Shown here one piece after another: positions 3,199 through 7,711 of a stretch of 8,838 nt of DNA. This DNA is from an uncultured Gammaproteobacteria bacterium. Its GTDB lineage: Bacteria > Pseudomonadota > Gammaproteobacteria > GCA-2729495. A program made the translations under genes and the position numbers. The DNA is taken from contig CAMYJV010000108.1 in NCBI GenBank assembly GCA_947258805.1, positions 1-8,838 of the forward strand. Reading direction: 5' to 3'. A model generated the notes under the pieces. That model did no database searches. It was given only the letters and a program-made list of their open reading frames with translations, and was not told the DNA's origin. How positions within the stretch are numbered: position 1 is the stretch's first letter; each line of letters starts with the position of its first letter.

Positions 3199-3228
3199 GG
3201 CGAGCGCCCACCGCACCCTCGTCCCTGG

Positions 3229-3441
3229 GCCAGGCCGGTCTCCGGGCTGACGAGCAGGCGCATTGCGCCTGGCCGACTCACCTTCCCGCGCTCGTGCGCA
3301 GTGGCTGCGGATCCTGGGTGGATACGCGGAGCCGGTTTGACTCGATCACCGTTGCGGGGGCAGCGCCGGAATCTGCGAACTGCGAAGGTTCAGCAACACC
3401 GGCTTCCCGTTATTCCGGCCTGACGGCCGGAAGCACCTGGC
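3229..3441 (-). ncRNA. Cobalamin (B12) riboswitch
   Basis: Reading the - strand, conserved elements of the cobalamin aptamer occur in the expected order. The 5' P1 strand is GCCAGG (3441-3436). It is followed by GGGAAGCCGGTG (3408-3397), the core GCCCCCGCAACGGTG (3361-3347), GCCACTG (3305-3299), GGGAAGG (3287-3281) and the B12 box GTCAGCCCGGAGACCGGCCTG (rc of 3231-3251, its last two bases trimmed in places by divergence). The 3' end CCTGGC (3234-3229) closes P1 with a perfect 6-bp match. Adenosylcobalamin or a related corrinoid would normally repress the gene downstream, here btuB 114 bases further on, and probably the adenosyltransferase after it. The aptamer starts 35 bases after the stop of the upstream ATPase gene, so only the genes downstream are under its control. 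Confidence 0.95.
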
Positions 3442-3451
3442 TTGAGACGAC

Positions 3452-3479
3452 TCTAAAGGCCCCGTCGGTTGGCGGTCAA
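3452..3479 (-). promoter_or_regulatory. Candidate sigma-70-type promoter for the riboswitch-btuB transcript
   Basis: On the - strand TTGACC (3479-3474, 5 of 6 consensus) is followed after 16 bases by TTTAGA (3457-3452, a weak -10). Transcription would begin near 3445, just before the 5' strand of the riboswitch P1 helix at 3441, which is where it should start. The -35 overlaps the stop codon of the upstream ATPase gene. The good placement supports the call; the poor -10 limits it. Confidence 0.4.
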
Positions 3480-4279
3480 GGTTGGCGGGCGACGGGGAAC
3501 AAAATGGTCTGGCCGTCGAGTTGCAGGCTGGCGAAGGGTACCTGGTACAGCGACTCGAGTTGCTTGGCCGTGAGCAAATCCGCGGCGGTACCGAAAGCCC
3601 AGCGACCGTCCCCGTACAGCAACAGCGCGTGGCTCGCATAGCGTGCCGCGAGCATCGGGTCGTGCAGGATGGCAATCACGGCCTTCCCGTCGGCACACAG
3701 GGCCTCCAGGCAATCAAGCACCATGAAGCGATGCTGTGGGTCGAGATGATTCAATGGTTCGTCCAGCAGCAACAGGTGCGGGTCCTGGGTCAGCAGTGTG
3801 GCGATGGCGAGGCGTCGTCGCTCGCCACCGGACAAGCTAACCGCGGCCCGGTGTTCCAGTCCGTGGAGATCGACGGCCCGCAGCGCGGCGCGCGCCAGCT
3901 CGATGTCGGTGGGCGACTCCCAGTGCCAGATTCCGGTCTGCGCATGCCGGCCAAGCAGGGCCATCTCCAGGACCGTGGTCGGGAACGGGTCCGCCTGATG
4001 CTGCAACAGCATGCCCAGGTCACGCGCCACCCGGCTGCGCGGCAACTCCCCGAGTGCCGAGCCGCCAAGCTGCCCCTGGCCCGCGGTGGCGGCACGCAGG
4101 CCGGCAAGGGTCAACAGGGTCAAGGTCTTGCCGACGCCGTTAGGCCCCAGCATGGCGACAAAGTTGCCTGGCTCGATCTGCAACGCCAGGTCTTCCACCA
4201 GCAATCGATCGGCCACGGCAATCGTCAATGCCGAGCAGCTCAGGCGGTTGGCGGGCCTCTGGCTCCGGGTGGGCGTCAT
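3476..4279 (-). CDS. BtuD-like ABC transporter ATP-binding protein
   Basis: This 267-residue cytoplasmic ATPase subunit belongs to the importer class for iron-siderophore, heme and cobalamin. All nucleotide-binding motifs are intact: Walker A GPNGVGKT (45-52), Q-loop Gln93, ABC signature LSGGE (149-153), Walker B LLLLDEP (169-175), D-loop NHLD (177-180) and switch His206 in AILHD. Length is typical for BtuD/FhuC-type subunits. Placement immediately upstream of the B12 riboswitch and btuB, plus btuF nearby, makes cobalamin the likely substrate, but sequence alone does not exclude heme or siderophore. No membrane permease (BtuC) is encoded in the window and the gene is preceded by a terminator, so it appears to be transcribed alone. 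The ATG at 4279 is the first usable start; no strong Shine-Dalgarno is visible. A TTG about 18 codons further in is a weaker alternative. Confidence 0.9.
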   Translation of the reverse strand: MTPTRSQRPANRLSCSALTIAVADRLLVEDLALQIEPGNFVAMLGPNGVGKTLTLLTLAGLRAATAGQGQLGGSALGELPRSRVARDLGMLLQHQADPFPTTVLEMALLGRHAQTGIWHWESPTDIELARAALRAVDLHGLEHRAAVSLSGGERRRLAIATLLTQDPHLLLLDEPLNHLDPQHRFMVLDCLEALCADGKAVIAILHDPMLAARYASHALLLYGDGRWAFGTAADLLTAKQLESLYQVPFASLQLDGQTILFPVARQP

Positions 4280-4323: not shown

Positions 4324-4350
4324 AAAAAAAACCCCGCTAGGGAGGCGGGG
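4324..4350 (-). terminator. Strong rho-independent terminator
   Basis: Reading the - strand, CCCCGC (4350-4345), a 7-base loop and GCGGGG (4337-4332) form a GC-only 6-bp stem, extendable by one U-A pair, followed by eight T (4331-4324). There is no T-run on the + strand side, so it terminates only - strand transcripts. It ends 44 bases before the ATPase start codon. The only gene body it can serve directly is the predicted small RNA upstream, or read-through from the gene ending at 4829. Confidence 0.9.
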
Positions 4351-4546
4351 TATACGGGTTATTGTTGTTGTCGCGAATCGGTTAGAAGGTCAACAGCGAG
4401 GCTGTGGTGGATTATCGTTGTTGTTATCGCTCGTGCCTCTACTTCTTATTATTGTTTTACTTCTTATTTTTTGGCGTCTTCTGGCTTCGATGTCTGGTGA
4501 TCAGATGTCGAATTGCCACTGTTGCCTCCAACCTTTTTTGTGCGCA
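4324..4546 (-). ncRNA. Predicted sigma-54-driven, A-rich regulatory small RNA (CrcZ/CrcY-like architecture)
   Basis: No convincing protein gene covers this stretch. On the - strand it runs about 223 nt from the predicted sigma-54 start to a strong intrinsic terminator. It contains four tracts of A-rich triplets: AAAAATAAGAAG (4471-4460), AACAATAATAAGAAG (4456-4442), GATAACAACAACGATAAT (4428-4411) and ACAACAACAATAAC (4371-4358). These are (AAN)n runs of the kind that bind the distal face of Hfq and, in Pseudomonas, the Hfq-Crc complex (consensus AAnAAnAA). The combination of sigma-54 promoter, repeated AAN motifs, no long ORF and a terminator is the known layout of CrcZ and CrcY, which titrate Hfq/Crc to relieve catabolite repression. 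Local base composition is markedly more AT-rich than the neighbouring genes. Homology to CrcZ cannot be shown here; the layout is seen, the function is inferred. A short 5' peptide ORF (4519-4457) leaves open an mRNA or dual-function role. Confidence 0.55.
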
Positions 4547-4556
4547 GCTATAAGTA

Positions 4557-4573
4557 AGCAAGACCCGTGCCAA
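4557..4573 (-). promoter_or_regulatory. Sigma-54 (RpoN) -24/-12 promoter
   Basis: The - strand reads TTGGCACGGGTCTTGCT, an exact fit to the sigma-54 consensus YTGGCACG-N4-TTGCW, with the invariant GG at 4571-4570 and GC at 4559-4558 at the required spacing. Transcription would start about 12 bases downstream of the GC, near 4546. No CDS begins downstream before the terminator at 4350, so it drives the predicted small RNA. A sigma-70-like reading (TTGGCA, 15 bases, TATAGC) overlaps it but has poor spacing. Confidence 0.75.
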
Positions 4574-4685
4574 CACTAGAAATTAGAGGCACATGAATGG
4601 CTTGGCTTGTCCTGATCCAGCATTTTCCGGACGCAGCTGCCACATGTGTAATAGATACCGACACCTTCAAGCTGCCCCAGGTGCT

Positions 4686-4828: not shown

Positions 4829-7711
4829 TCACGGACTGTAAAACTTTCCAACGCCCGTGGCGGGCAGCAGGCTGGCGGCTCGGAACACGCGGCCGTTGAT
4901 CACTGTCACTTCGACGTTCGCGGCTGCATCGATGTCCTTCAGCGGGTCGCCGCGTACCAGGACCAGGTCGGCCAGCAGGCCGCTCCGAATGCTCCCGACG
5001 GAGTCTGCGGCGCCGATGGCCTCAGCCGCGTCCAGCGTCGCCATCCGCAGCACCTGGAAGGGCTGCAGGCCCGTCTGGCGCAGCAGCCGCAGCTCCGCAT
5101 GCAGGCCGAGGCCGGCCGGCACAGCCGGGGCTCCGCTGCCGGCCACAATACGGGCGCCGCGGCCAACGGCCCGGAACAGGCTTTGCCCCGCGGTTCGGGC
5201 CTCGGCTCGCAGCGCCGTGCTGAAGGTGGCGGCCTGCGCGTTCCAGCTTTGCTGATACCAGCTCAACTCGGCCGGTCGCAGCAGGTTGGCAAGGCGCGGA
5301 TCTGTCGTGAAACCGTCGCCGGCCAGCAGCAGGCCGGGCAGGCCGATGGCGCTCAGGGCAGAGACGCTGGTGAGCCCGGCGGCGCCTGCGACGTCGATCA
5401 CGTCGCCGTAGATGAAGCGGTTGGCGGCGTCTGGATAGCCAACAGTCTCGCCGATGCGCCCGCGCAGCGGAATCTCGCGGGCCCCGAGCAGCGCGCCGGG
5501 GAATGCGTCGGCCGCAATGGCCGCAAGCCCGCGGGCGCCGGCCCGCGTGATTGTGTCAGCCCGCTCGGGCCCGCTGCGCTCGTCGCAGACGGCAATGGCC
5601 ACGGCCGCCAGTTGTTCCGCGGCAGCCCATGCGCTGCCTTCACCGCAATCCGACACCACCGGAAACAGCCGCGGTCCGGGCCGCTGGCCGCTGGCCCAGC
5701 TTTCCCGGCGTTCCACGCTCGCGACCCTGTCGTGCACCAGGTCGCGCACGCTGGTCACGCCGTAGGCCAGCCACGCCCGCCCGGCTTGCTGCCCGACGGG
5801 GCGCCGCGGCTGCACCGCGAGGTCCATCAGACCGGGCAGCACGGTCAGGTCCCTCGCGTCGAGCAGTTCGCCGGGCGGCGGGTCGCGCCAGGGGCCAATA
5901 GCCTCGATGCGATTGCCGGCCACCACGATGTCCTGGGCAAACTGGTAGCCCGGACCCAGGCCATCGAAGACCCTGCCTGCACGAATGACGAGCCGGCGGT
6001 CTTTGGGTGGCCGGGCGGGTTGCCAGGTCAGCGTCACGGGCATGGGCTGCACTTCGCCGCTCGCGGCTGACCAGGTCATGGGCCCCGACGGGCCGAGCCA
6101 TGCCAGCGTGTTGCCGCCGTCGATCCACTGCGGCCCCGTCGCGCCTGCTGCAGCTGCGGTCACCGGGTCTTCCGCCGGTTGCGAGCCGATGACCCGAGAC
6201 ACAGTCAGGCGACCGTCGTCGAGGGTTGCGATGTGCGCGCCATTCGGCGACAAGAATTCGTTAGCCAGCGGTGACAAACCCGGGTCGGCAAGACTCGCGG
6301 TGGCGCCCTCTCCATCGAAAGCCAGCTGACGACCGCCGCCGAGCGCCACGATCAAACGCCCGTCGGGCAGCCATTGCGGCCGGACCGTATCGGGCAGCCC
6401 GCGGGCGAGTTCCTGCACCTCGCCCGACTCGATGTCGACGCGCTTCAGCGCCAGCGTGCGTGCGCCGGGATGGGGCTCGGCGAGATAAGCGATGGCGCCG
6501 CTGTCCGGTCGCCAGGCCGGATAGAACGCTGCAACGGGTTCAGTCGTCAGCTCTCGCATTGCGTTGTCGCCGAGGTTCAGCAGCCACAGCTGCAAGCCGT
6601 CGCCGCGATCGGACACAAAGGCCAGCTGCGTGCCGTCCGGTGCGCCGGCCAGTTGCGTATCCAGGAATGGCGCCGTTGTGAGCTTGCGAACCACACCACC
6701 GGACTCGTCCAGTTCCCAGACATCGCCCAGCGCGGTGACGAACTGGCGCGAGCCGGCCCGGGCGATGCCGGTAATGCCGCGCACCGGCGTCGGCTCGGCG
6801 GCCGGGATGCCGGCGGGTGAGAGAGCGCGACTCGTGTCCGGCAGCGTCAACCGGGCCTGGAAAGCCACGTCTGTACCGCGAAAGTCGTCGAAACGGCGCC
6901 GCCGGATGCGGCCGTCGGCCACGTAGATGAACTGTTGTCTGTCGAGCCAGAGCGCAGGTGAGGTCAACACGTTTTCGCCGCGCGTGAGCGCCTTCACCAC
7001 GGGCGGGTCGGACAGAATCGCCATTCGCAACTCGCTGATGCCGGGCGTCCGGTACACGAATGTCAGCAAGGTGCCGTCAGGCCGCCAGGACGGCGTGTGC
7101 AGTCGGCCGCGGCTGTTGACGATGCGTTCGGCCCGCCCTTCTGCACCGATCGCGTACAGCGCGTCACCGTCAGCTCCGGCCGCTATGTAAGCGAGCCGGT
7201 CGCCCCGGGCGGCGTAGGCCGGGTCGCGTTCATCGCCCGCGGCGGAACTTCGTTGGCGCAGGTTCAGCGTATCCGGCTCGATTTCCCAGATACTGAGGTC
7301 GCCGCCGCGGTTGGACACGAAGGCGACCCGCTGACCGTCGGGATGCCAAACTGGGCCATAGTGATCGTAGTCGCCGAAGGTGAGCTGTTGTGGCGCACTG
7401 CCTTGGGCGTCGATAGCCCACAGCTGCCGTCGGCCCGGCACGCCGGCATCGAACACGATGCGCTGGCCGTCTGGCGACAGGGCCGGTCGCCTTGCGAGGA
7501 GTTCCGGGCCAGTCAGGGCCTGGGCGCTGCCGTCGGCGGCATTCACGGTCCAGATCAGCCCGGCGAGGTCGAAGCTGAGCCGGGTGCCGTCGGCGTTTGC
7601 CGACACGTGGATGTCGGTGCCTTCCTGCAGCGTCACGACGGTTTGCGCGTGAATGGCCAGGCTGATGCCCAGGACGAAGCTGGCAACCAGCCAGTGACGT
7701 GGGCGCTGCAC
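4829..7711 (-). CDS. Exported TolB/PD40 beta-propeller fused to a degenerate amidohydrolase-type domain
   Basis: The frame is open to 8140, but everything upstream of 7711 overlaps the preceding gene and is low-quality Arg-rich sequence. The GTG at 7711 starts a 960-residue protein with a signal peptide (basic RPRH, hydrophobic LVASFVLGISLAI, HAQ cleavage), so it is exported. Residues about 25-560 carry PD40/TolB-type propeller repeats such as LSPDGQRIVF, WHPDGQRVAFVSNRGGDLSIW, SWRPDGTLLTF, GAPDGTQLAFVSDRGDGLQLW and WRPDSGAIAYL. Residues about 572-960 align with metal-dependent amidohydrolases: LVIRAGRVFDG, VLPGLMDL, YGVTSVRDL, HAELRLLRQTGLQP, ATLDAAEAIG and GSIRSGLLADLVLVRGDPL. The catalytic HxH after PGLMD is A632-V-Q634, and the expected GTD is G858-S-G860, so hydrolase activity is doubtful. 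Fusions of this type with an intact active site are known in Proteobacteria as uncharacterised secreted peptidase- or imidase-like proteins; substrate is unknown. It follows the GGT-like gene by 2 bp, implying translational coupling. Confidence 0.88.
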   Translation of the reverse strand: MQRPRHWLVASFVLGISLAIHAQTVVTLQEGTDIHVSANADGTRLSFDLAGLIWTVNAADGSAQALTGPELLARRPALSPDGQRIVFDAGVPGRRQLWAIDAQGSAPQQLTFGDYDHYGPVWHPDGQRVAFVSNRGGDLSIWEIEPDTLNLRQRSSAAGDERDPAYAARGDRLAYIAAGADGDALYAIGAEGRAERIVNSRGRLHTPSWRPDGTLLTFVYRTPGISELRMAILSDPPVVKALTRGENVLTSPALWLDRQQFIYVADGRIRRRRFDDFRGTDVAFQARLTLPDTSRALSPAGIPAAEPTPVRGITGIARAGSRQFVTALGDVWELDESGGVVRKLTTAPFLDTQLAGAPDGTQLAFVSDRGDGLQLWLLNLGDNAMRELTTEPVAAFYPAWRPDSGAIAYLAEPHPGARTLALKRVDIESGEVQELARGLPDTVRPQWLPDGRLIVALGGGRQLAFDGEGATASLADPGLSPLANEFLSPNGAHIATLDDGRLTVSRVIGSQPAEDPVTAAAAGATGPQWIDGGNTLAWLGPSGPMTWSAASGEVQPMPVTLTWQPARPPKDRRLVIRAGRVFDGLGPGYQFAQDIVVAGNRIEAIGPWRDPPPGELLDARDLTVLPGLMDLAVQPRRPVGQQAGRAWLAYGVTSVRDLVHDRVASVERRESWASGQRPGPRLFPVVSDCGEGSAWAAAEQLAAVAIAVCDERSGPERADTITRAGARGLAAIAADAFPGALLGAREIPLRGRIGETVGYPDAANRFIYGDVIDVAGAAGLTSVSALSAIGLPGLLLAGDGFTTDPRLANLLRPAELSWYQQSWNAQAATFSTALRAEARTAGQSLFRAVGRGARIVAGSGAPAVPAGLGLHAELRLLRQTGLQPFQVLRMATLDAAEAIGAADSVGSIRSGLLADLVLVRGDPLKDIDAAANVEVTVINGRVFRAASLLPATGVGKFYSP

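Follow-up and report, generated by a model that had tools for sequence, protein, structure and literature searches.

A predicted sigma-54-driven, A-rich small RNA family with a PEP-CTERM-type control region in gammaproteobacteria

Described systems and the layout of the locus

Sigma-54-driven RNAs that capture Hfq have been described for the CbrAB/CrcZ system in Pseudomonadaceae. Hfq prefers A-R-N repeats, and its class II (distal-face) small RNAs include ChiX and MgrR. CrcZ was reported to sequester Hfq-Crc (PMC6292655), and CbrAB was called unique to Pseudomonadaceae in a review (PMC8871633). For PEP-CTERM genes of proteobacteria, Haft et al. (2006) described an upstream control region made of a 17-nt motif ending in TTTACA, a spacer of 32-92 nt and a sigma-54 site, and PrsR was their predicted activator of this region (PMC1569441). 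The section on the region mentioned a few additional sites before other genes and named no RNA, and the stimulus of PrsK-PrsR was called obscure (PMC1569441). A paper of 2023 reported RpoN dependence of one such PEP-CTERM gene together with a predicted upstream enhancer, the parts concerned giving no direct proof for PrsR (PMC9850573).

The window, by which we mean the whole analysed stretch of 8,838 nucleotides, comes from an uncultured Gammaproteobacteria bacterium. On its - strand, a perfect sigma-54 promoter, an A-rich RNA of about 223 nt and a terminator follow one another from 4573 to 4324, just as an earlier note on this DNA had described. The sigma-54 (-24/-12) promoter TTGGCACGGGTCTTGCT lies at 4557..4573 (- strand). 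Upstream of it, at 4647..4662 (- strand), stands an enhancer (UAS), GTCGGTATCTATTACA, a predicted PrsR site of the kind of motif 1 in the PEP-CTERM control region. The predicted small RNA gene occupies 4324..4546 (- strand), with its 5' end placed by the promoter spacing and a conserved GCGCAC start. The intrinsic terminator ACCCCGCCTCCCTAGCGGGGTTTTTTTT, which the note had put at 4350-4324, was present and proved one base longer (4324..4351, - strand); it is kept in both type I alignments described below.

On its own, the promoter is modestly above chance: the pattern TGGCACN5TTGCW had one match in the window, with 0 mismatches, against 0.40 expected with at most one mismatch, and 63 of 200 shuffles contained at least one match. 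Terminator-like sites across the whole window numbered 4 against 5.9 expected, with no excess over chance. We judged the element to be real because promoter, enhancer and RNA were conserved in all 57 loci examined. Of these, 33 (counting the window) belong to type I and 23 to type II, a distant subfamily; L179 is an outlier.

Distribution, fold and A-rich tracts of the RNA

One named relative, found through the amidohydrolase gene beside the RNA, was a Chromatiales MAG (L001; 75% identity in the best segment), which carries the same promoter, RNA and terminator at the same place as the window. BLASTN matched 41 of 296 genomes of this MAG's order at E<=1e-3, with 31 of the matches reaching E<=1e-16, and an alignment of 29 sequences from promoter to terminator had a mean column identity of 72%. 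Further searches used R1, a covariance model that covers the RNA but neither its promoter nor its enhancer. It matched 56 of 396 genomes at E<=1e-6, 32 of them strongly (94.9-228 bits) and 24 more weakly (40-60 bits); the genomes of the ten weaker BLASTN matches were not among these 56. We retrieved 25 R1 loci: the 24 weaker ones plus L163, the one strong locus that was new. The window RNA scored 225.2 bits against R1, a model built with the window sequence among its inputs. Applied to 369 genomes sampled from the class, R1 matched 16 at E<=0.01. Strong matches were limited to two (225.8 and 200.2 bits), both within the order of L001, and none of the remaining 14 exceeded 34.9 bits. When the RNA in 16 sources was scanned with Rfam 15, no family attained its gathering score.

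Among the 24 weaker loci, 23 aligned with one another as type II, having a sequence of their own, A-rich blocks and a long-range stem GUAACUG/CAGUUAC. The remaining one, L179 (G084:C253), shares the enhancer, the promoter and the amidohydrolase gene upstream; it fits neither subfamily, was left out of the type II alignment, and is possibly a third type. The RNAs of two type I loci, L014 and L015, were identical. In L026 and L027 the terminator is tandemly repeated 3' of the RNA, with extra copies of the CCCACCGGGG-T8 end. Judged by its sequence conservation, the element is a genuine RNA family, common to dozens of related gammaproteobacteria, and the predicted RNA gene, promoter and enhancer are strongly supported.

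For type I, a covarying long-range fold was obtained from 26 RNAs, with 34 pairs and 88.2% of cells paired, a figure favoured by the derivation of the structure from the same sequences. Changes on both sides occurred in 13 of the 34 pairs, against 5.5 in shuffles (0/500 shuffles reached 13), and the covariation score was 0.131 against 0.070 in shuffles and above all slid versions, an excess that kinship can also produce without structure. The long-range stem P2 joins GGTT at 4530..4533 (- strand; GGUUUCU in many relatives) with CTAACC at 4380..4385 (- strand; AGAAACC in many relatives), and four of the seven pairs of this helix showed changes on both sides. A conserved hairpin, UUCGACAUCUG...CAGACAUCGAA (4486..4512, - strand), contains helices 5 and 6 with 94-95% of cells paired, and two inner helices were paired in 69-76% of cells only. 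Next to the hairpin lies the conserved GCCAGAAGACGC (4474..4485, - strand), with the stretch GCCAGAAGA that recurs in most type I and all type II RNAs; it may be a pairing or protein-binding site. Near the 3' end, GACAACAACAA was invariant in 29 and in 26 aligned type I sequences; L028 and L163, which are in neither type I alignment, deviate there.

The earlier note saw no convincing protein gene in the RNA interval, and we found likewise: closed reading frames in the window RNA do not exceed 24 codons, and a conserved frame was sought in 51 RNAs and none was found, neither start nor length being kept. An alternative to an RNA, a short coding sequence rich in K/N codons, would have in its favour a GTG with an upstream GGAGG and a frame of 20-24 codons in the window, as well as longest frames of 43-44 codons in two relatives (L001 and L008). 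However, the longest frame has 12 codons or fewer in 16 of the 26 type I RNAs, and the covariation speaks for a folded RNA. We rejected this explanation for want of a conserved frame and regard it as extremely improbable.

The A-rich parts of the RNA are block 1, an (AAN)n tract at 4439..4472 (- strand) and a putative Hfq distal-face site; block 2, ATAACAACAACGATAATCC, an A-rich tract at 4409..4427 (- strand); and block 3, GACAACAACAATAACCC, at 4356..4372 (- strand), which is the longest invariant type I stretch outside the terminator and not a feature of type II. In the window RNA, AAnAAnAA motifs number four (0.49 in dinucleotide shuffles) and runs of (AAN)>=3 cover 48 nt (4.5 in shuffles); 0/2000 shuffles reached its motif count or run length. 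Relatives showed the same enrichment. The 26 type I RNAs had on average 4.0 AAnAAnAA motifs (0.65 shuffled) and 46.7 nt in such runs, and 25 others (23 type II, L163 and L179) had 3.8 motifs (0.63 shuffled) and 42.5 nt. The (AAN)n content was thus about 6-9 times that of shuffles, a control that is generous to A-rich enrichment as whole-RNA shuffling disperses locally clustered A. Real CrcZ (L035, 396 nt) has five AAnAAnAA motifs and 63 nt in runs, a density similar to that of this RNA. Conservation of both promoter and AAN tracts, on which the earlier note had made its proposal depend, was observed in the relatives.

Neighbouring genes, enhancer and predicted activator

The earlier note placed the RNA between a B12-uptake ATPase gene and a propeller-amidohydrolase gene, away from cbrAB, and Pfam bore this out. 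The upstream neighbour at 4829..7654 (- strand, start not fixed) matches PD40 and Amidohydro_1, and the downstream neighbour, a btuD-like ABC-transporter ATPase gene at 3476..4279 (- strand), matches ABC_tran. Across the loci, upstream neighbours were amidohydrolase, pdxH- or pheA-like genes, the last two names being our reading of the sequences with no family search behind them. Of the 33 type I loci, 15 have the amidohydrolase gene upstream, as do 24/24 other loci, and its presence in both sets supports common descent of type I and the others. Downstream, btuD was found in 28/33 type I loci and in 0/24 others; three of the five type I loci without it have less than 200 bp of downstream sequence, and one of the 24 others has only 221 bp. 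In terms of synteny, then, the promoter-enhancer-RNA unit is constant and the neighbours on both sides are variable. Since neither neighbour is constant while the unit persists, a trans-acting unit is the simplest reading.

The same data bear on whether the RNA is a regulatory leader of btuD, acting as an attenuator within a B12-import operon. In the window btuD starts 45 nt past the terminator, and the adjacency in most type I loci fits such a leader. Against it, btuD is missing downstream in all of the other loci and also in L019 and L026, the window contains, apart from the RNA, a cobalamin riboswitch (RF00174, 84.3 bits; 3216-3455, - strand) ahead of a TonB-dependent receptor gene, and the consensus fold prediction, which was not aimed at one, shows no alternative antiterminator fold. 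We rejected the leader on the changing neighbours and consider it very improbable, although the adjacency to btuD could reflect a local role in the type I subfamily. A cobalamin riboswitch also lies near the RNA in L010, L012 and L163.

Upstream of the promoter, the element GTCG-N7-T(T/G)AC(A/G) was found at -90 to -92 from the promoter start in 57/57 loci. In the first 31 loci (window included), to which the pattern was fitted, it occurred in 31/31, at -91 in 29 and at -90 in two, and shuffled upstream regions matched it at 0.5% per locus. Tests independent of this fitting come from the 25 loci that R1 added later and from the genome-wide sites described below. All 25 of those loci, found by a model that includes neither site, carry the enhancer and the sigma-54 promoter upstream. 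The promoter pattern (T/C)GGCA(C/T)-N5-TTGC fits 57/57 loci and none of those examined is without a promoter, an invariance that is partly by construction in that the locating pattern fixes the core letters. The spacer of about 75 nt between enhancer and promoter shows little conservation otherwise (mean 0.24 bits per position). Such a fixed enhancer distance despite changing neighbour genes is the mark of an enhancer-dependent sigma-54 promoter. Within the spacer, at -32 to -21 from the promoter start, 55 loci showed a short conserved AA-N5-T(G/A)-N-TT, which could be an IHF (DNA-bending) site.

The enhancer and promoter match the PEP-CTERM control region of Haft et al. as described in their text, rather than by its logo, and the spacer of about 75 nt falls within their 32-92 nt. 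Some of the RNA-bearing genomes also have these two motifs in front of PEP-CTERM-like genes. The difference is that the control region drives a PEP-CTERM protein gene, whereas here the motif pair precedes, and would drive, a small RNA. A strict search for the pair in 31 RNA-bearing genomes found the RNA promoter in 31/31 and four further sites, with 0 matches for a reversed control. With a looser promoter pattern, 28/31 genomes were matched and the non-RNA sites rose to nine; this search fixes the last base of the enhancer as A and thereby misses the RNA promoter of three genomes, and its reversed control matched twice. Six of the nine non-RNA sites precede genes for proteins with a PEP-CTERM-like C-terminal signal. 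Two of these six proteins passed the TIGR02595 cut-off and the other four matched PEP-CTERM models weakly; with this count and the two matches of the reversed control, some of the nine sites may be chance matches.

Individual sites were of several kinds. The G175 site falls within coding sequence and looks spurious. At L079 (G166:C248, ~865-960), enhancer and promoter stand before a frame of about 70 aa, followed by a terminator-like hairpin; the frame had no NCBIfam match at E<=1. At L092 (G078:C1, ~107034-107118), the enhancer and a sigma-54-like promoter are not followed by any evident reading frame, but about 130 nt on there is a hairpin, rich in GC and with a T run; this is possibly a second PrsR-type small RNA.

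PrsR (TIGR02915) exceeded its cut-off in 159 of the 296 genomes of L001's order. RNA-bearing genomes accounted for 44 of 52 (45 with the borderline G157), against 115 (114) of 244 others, an association with Fisher p of about 5e-7 or lower, ignoring kinship; the 52 leave out the RNA-bearing genomes G666, G670, G676 and G678. The 44 genomes over the cut-off matched at E 1e-199 to 1e-217, and in seven RNA-bearing genomes (G100, G178, G144, G116, G278, G179 and G230) the best PrsR match reached only about E 1e-104 to 1e-112. These gene searches, like those for Hfq, covered the genomes of relatives rather than the window's own. PrsR as the predicted activator of the RNA promoter is well supported by the sites and by this co-occurrence. 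Among the papers searched, none combines PrsR with a small RNA and a few mention PEP-CTERM or exosortase together with small RNA; by title and the start of the abstract, the two with both PEP-CTERM and Hfq look unrelated.

Comparison with CrcZ and proposed function

CrcZ, CrcY and CrcX of Pseudomonadaceae (RF01675) share with this RNA a sigma-54 promoter, AAnAAnAA motifs, a terminator, the lack of coding and the proposed capture of Hfq. The earlier note's description of a CrcZ-like layout outside cbrAB (sigma-54-type promoter, AAN-rich noncoding RNA and terminator) was supported. They differ in several respects. CrcZ has about 396 nt, against about 223 nt here, and a different sequence and covariance model; it has CbrB-type activation and lies next to cbrB, whereas this RNA has a PrsR-type enhancer, does not adjoin cbrB and has no demonstrable Crc.

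These differences have to be weighed against the possibility that the RNA is a relocated CrcZ homologue, transcribed under CbrB and RpoN, that serves carbon catabolite control by titrating Hfq/Crc. The common layout speaks for it, as does an A-rich density near that of real CrcZ. Sub-threshold RF01675 matches were also obtained in five of ten distant relatives (19.0-27.5 bits, best E=0.00074), and Crc-like proteins of 39-47% identity are encoded in 30/31 RNA-bearing genomes. The gathering score of RF01675 is, however, 95 bits, and matches of 11-30 bits occur anyway in 27 of 274 genomes of the class, in which a single genome, of Pseudomonas type, exceeded the cut-off. The covariance comparison with CrcZ that the note had envisaged gave no match at E<=10 for the window and none at E<=1 in five type I loci, and in the reverse direction R1 scored the true CrcZ of that Pseudomonas-type genome at 11.6 bits (E=0.35). 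CrcZ membership was rejected on the lack of an RF01675 match over threshold, on this low R1 score and on the lack of a full-length CbrA match.

As to the activator, the note's expectation of a CbrB/RpoN-driven RNA held for the sigma-54 promoter and failed for CbrB, the enhancer being of the PEP-CTERM/PrsR kind. The conserved upstream element differs from the TGTTAC subsites of CbrB and matches PEP-CTERM promoters. Among the matches listed, full-length CbrA was found in none of the 31 RNA-bearing genomes, the matches covering the C-terminal kinase part alone (from about residue 570), and a control genome matched fully. CbrB was rejected as activator on the enhancer site and on this CbrA result. 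Of the genes that the note had named for a genome search, hfq and Crc-like genes were each present in 30/31 relatives and full-length CbrA was not among the matches listed.

A role in Crc-dependent catabolite repression, also put forward in the note, was not supported. Four Crc-like proteins of the 30 were read (L116, L117, L118 and L119), and all of them keep QE(T/V), GDWN and SDHAPL, which we take by eye to be exonuclease-III-type motifs; Pseudomonas Crc has QDT, GSLH and SQHAAL at these positions. They may represent the nuclease form ancestral to Pseudomonas Crc, and Crc orthology of the Crc-like proteins is doubtful. All in all, we hold a CrcZ homologue to be very improbable.

The explanation that we consider the most probable, with some confidence, is a stand-alone, trans-acting RNA driven by PrsR and sigma-54 that titrates Hfq, CrcZ-like in its working but not CrcZ. 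By analogy with CrcZ, this favours the alternative that the note itself had offered, another RpoN-controlled Hfq-sponge system. Upon activation of the PrsK-PrsR two-component system, PrsR would bind the enhancer at 4662-4647 and drive sigma-54 RNA polymerase at 4573-4557, giving an RNA of about 223 nt that ends at the terminator. For these two steps, PrsR binding and sigma-54 transcription, the conserved sites are strong evidence. The long-range stem would close the RNA and leave a strand of about 100 nt, rich in (AAN)n and mostly unpaired, with a second A-rich stretch before the terminator. These strands could present several A-R-N sites for the distal face of Hfq, by which the RNA would capture Hfq; this capture would relieve or re-route Hfq-dependent control while surface and exopolysaccharide genes are induced. 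The gene, the promoter, the enhancer at its fixed distance, the predicted fold, the A-rich enrichment and the lack of conserved coding can all be read from the aligned sequences. Hfq uptake is put forward because Hfq prefers A-R-N repeats and because the RNA resembles CrcZ, and we infer binding, titration and the physiological outcome from this analogy.

The class II Hfq small RNAs, ChiX and MgrR, offer another comparison, as they share A-R-N repeats and a U-tailed terminator with this RNA, which is more A-rich and under predicted sigma-54/PrsR control. An RNA under the same PrsR/sigma-54 promoter might accordingly be an Hfq-dependent pairing RNA of the distal-face ('class II') kind, in which the A-rich tracts anchor Hfq and GCCAGAAGA pairs with mRNAs. 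The presence of GCCAGAAGA in 27/33 type I and 23/23 type II RNAs, needless for a plain sponge, points in this direction, and so do the terminator with its U tail and the Hfq gene in 30/31 genomes. On the other hand, six type I RNAs and L179 are without GCCAGAAGA, and the roughly 47 nt of (AAN)>=3 runs per type I RNA are more than anchoring would need in a class II RNA. We regard a pairing RNA as an unlikely, though not negligible, explanation, and a pairing role of GCCAGAAGA alongside Hfq uptake as possible.

Coming back to the Hfq-titrating RNA, the broader proposal is that the PrsK-PrsR exosortase/exopolysaccharide system drives its own family of such RNAs as an independently evolved counterpart of CbrAB-CrcZ, by which a surface-assembly signal would reset Hfq-dependent control cell-wide; to our judgement this could equally well turn out right or wrong. 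If true, it would be a second family of sigma-54-driven Hfq-capturing RNAs, not recognisably akin to the first in sequence and tied to the PEP-CTERM/exosortase regulator, and would suggest that sigma-54 two-component systems have acquired outputs of this kind more than once. PrsK-PrsR, itself still poorly understood, would then have a compact reporter and be linked to RNA-based control on a global scale.
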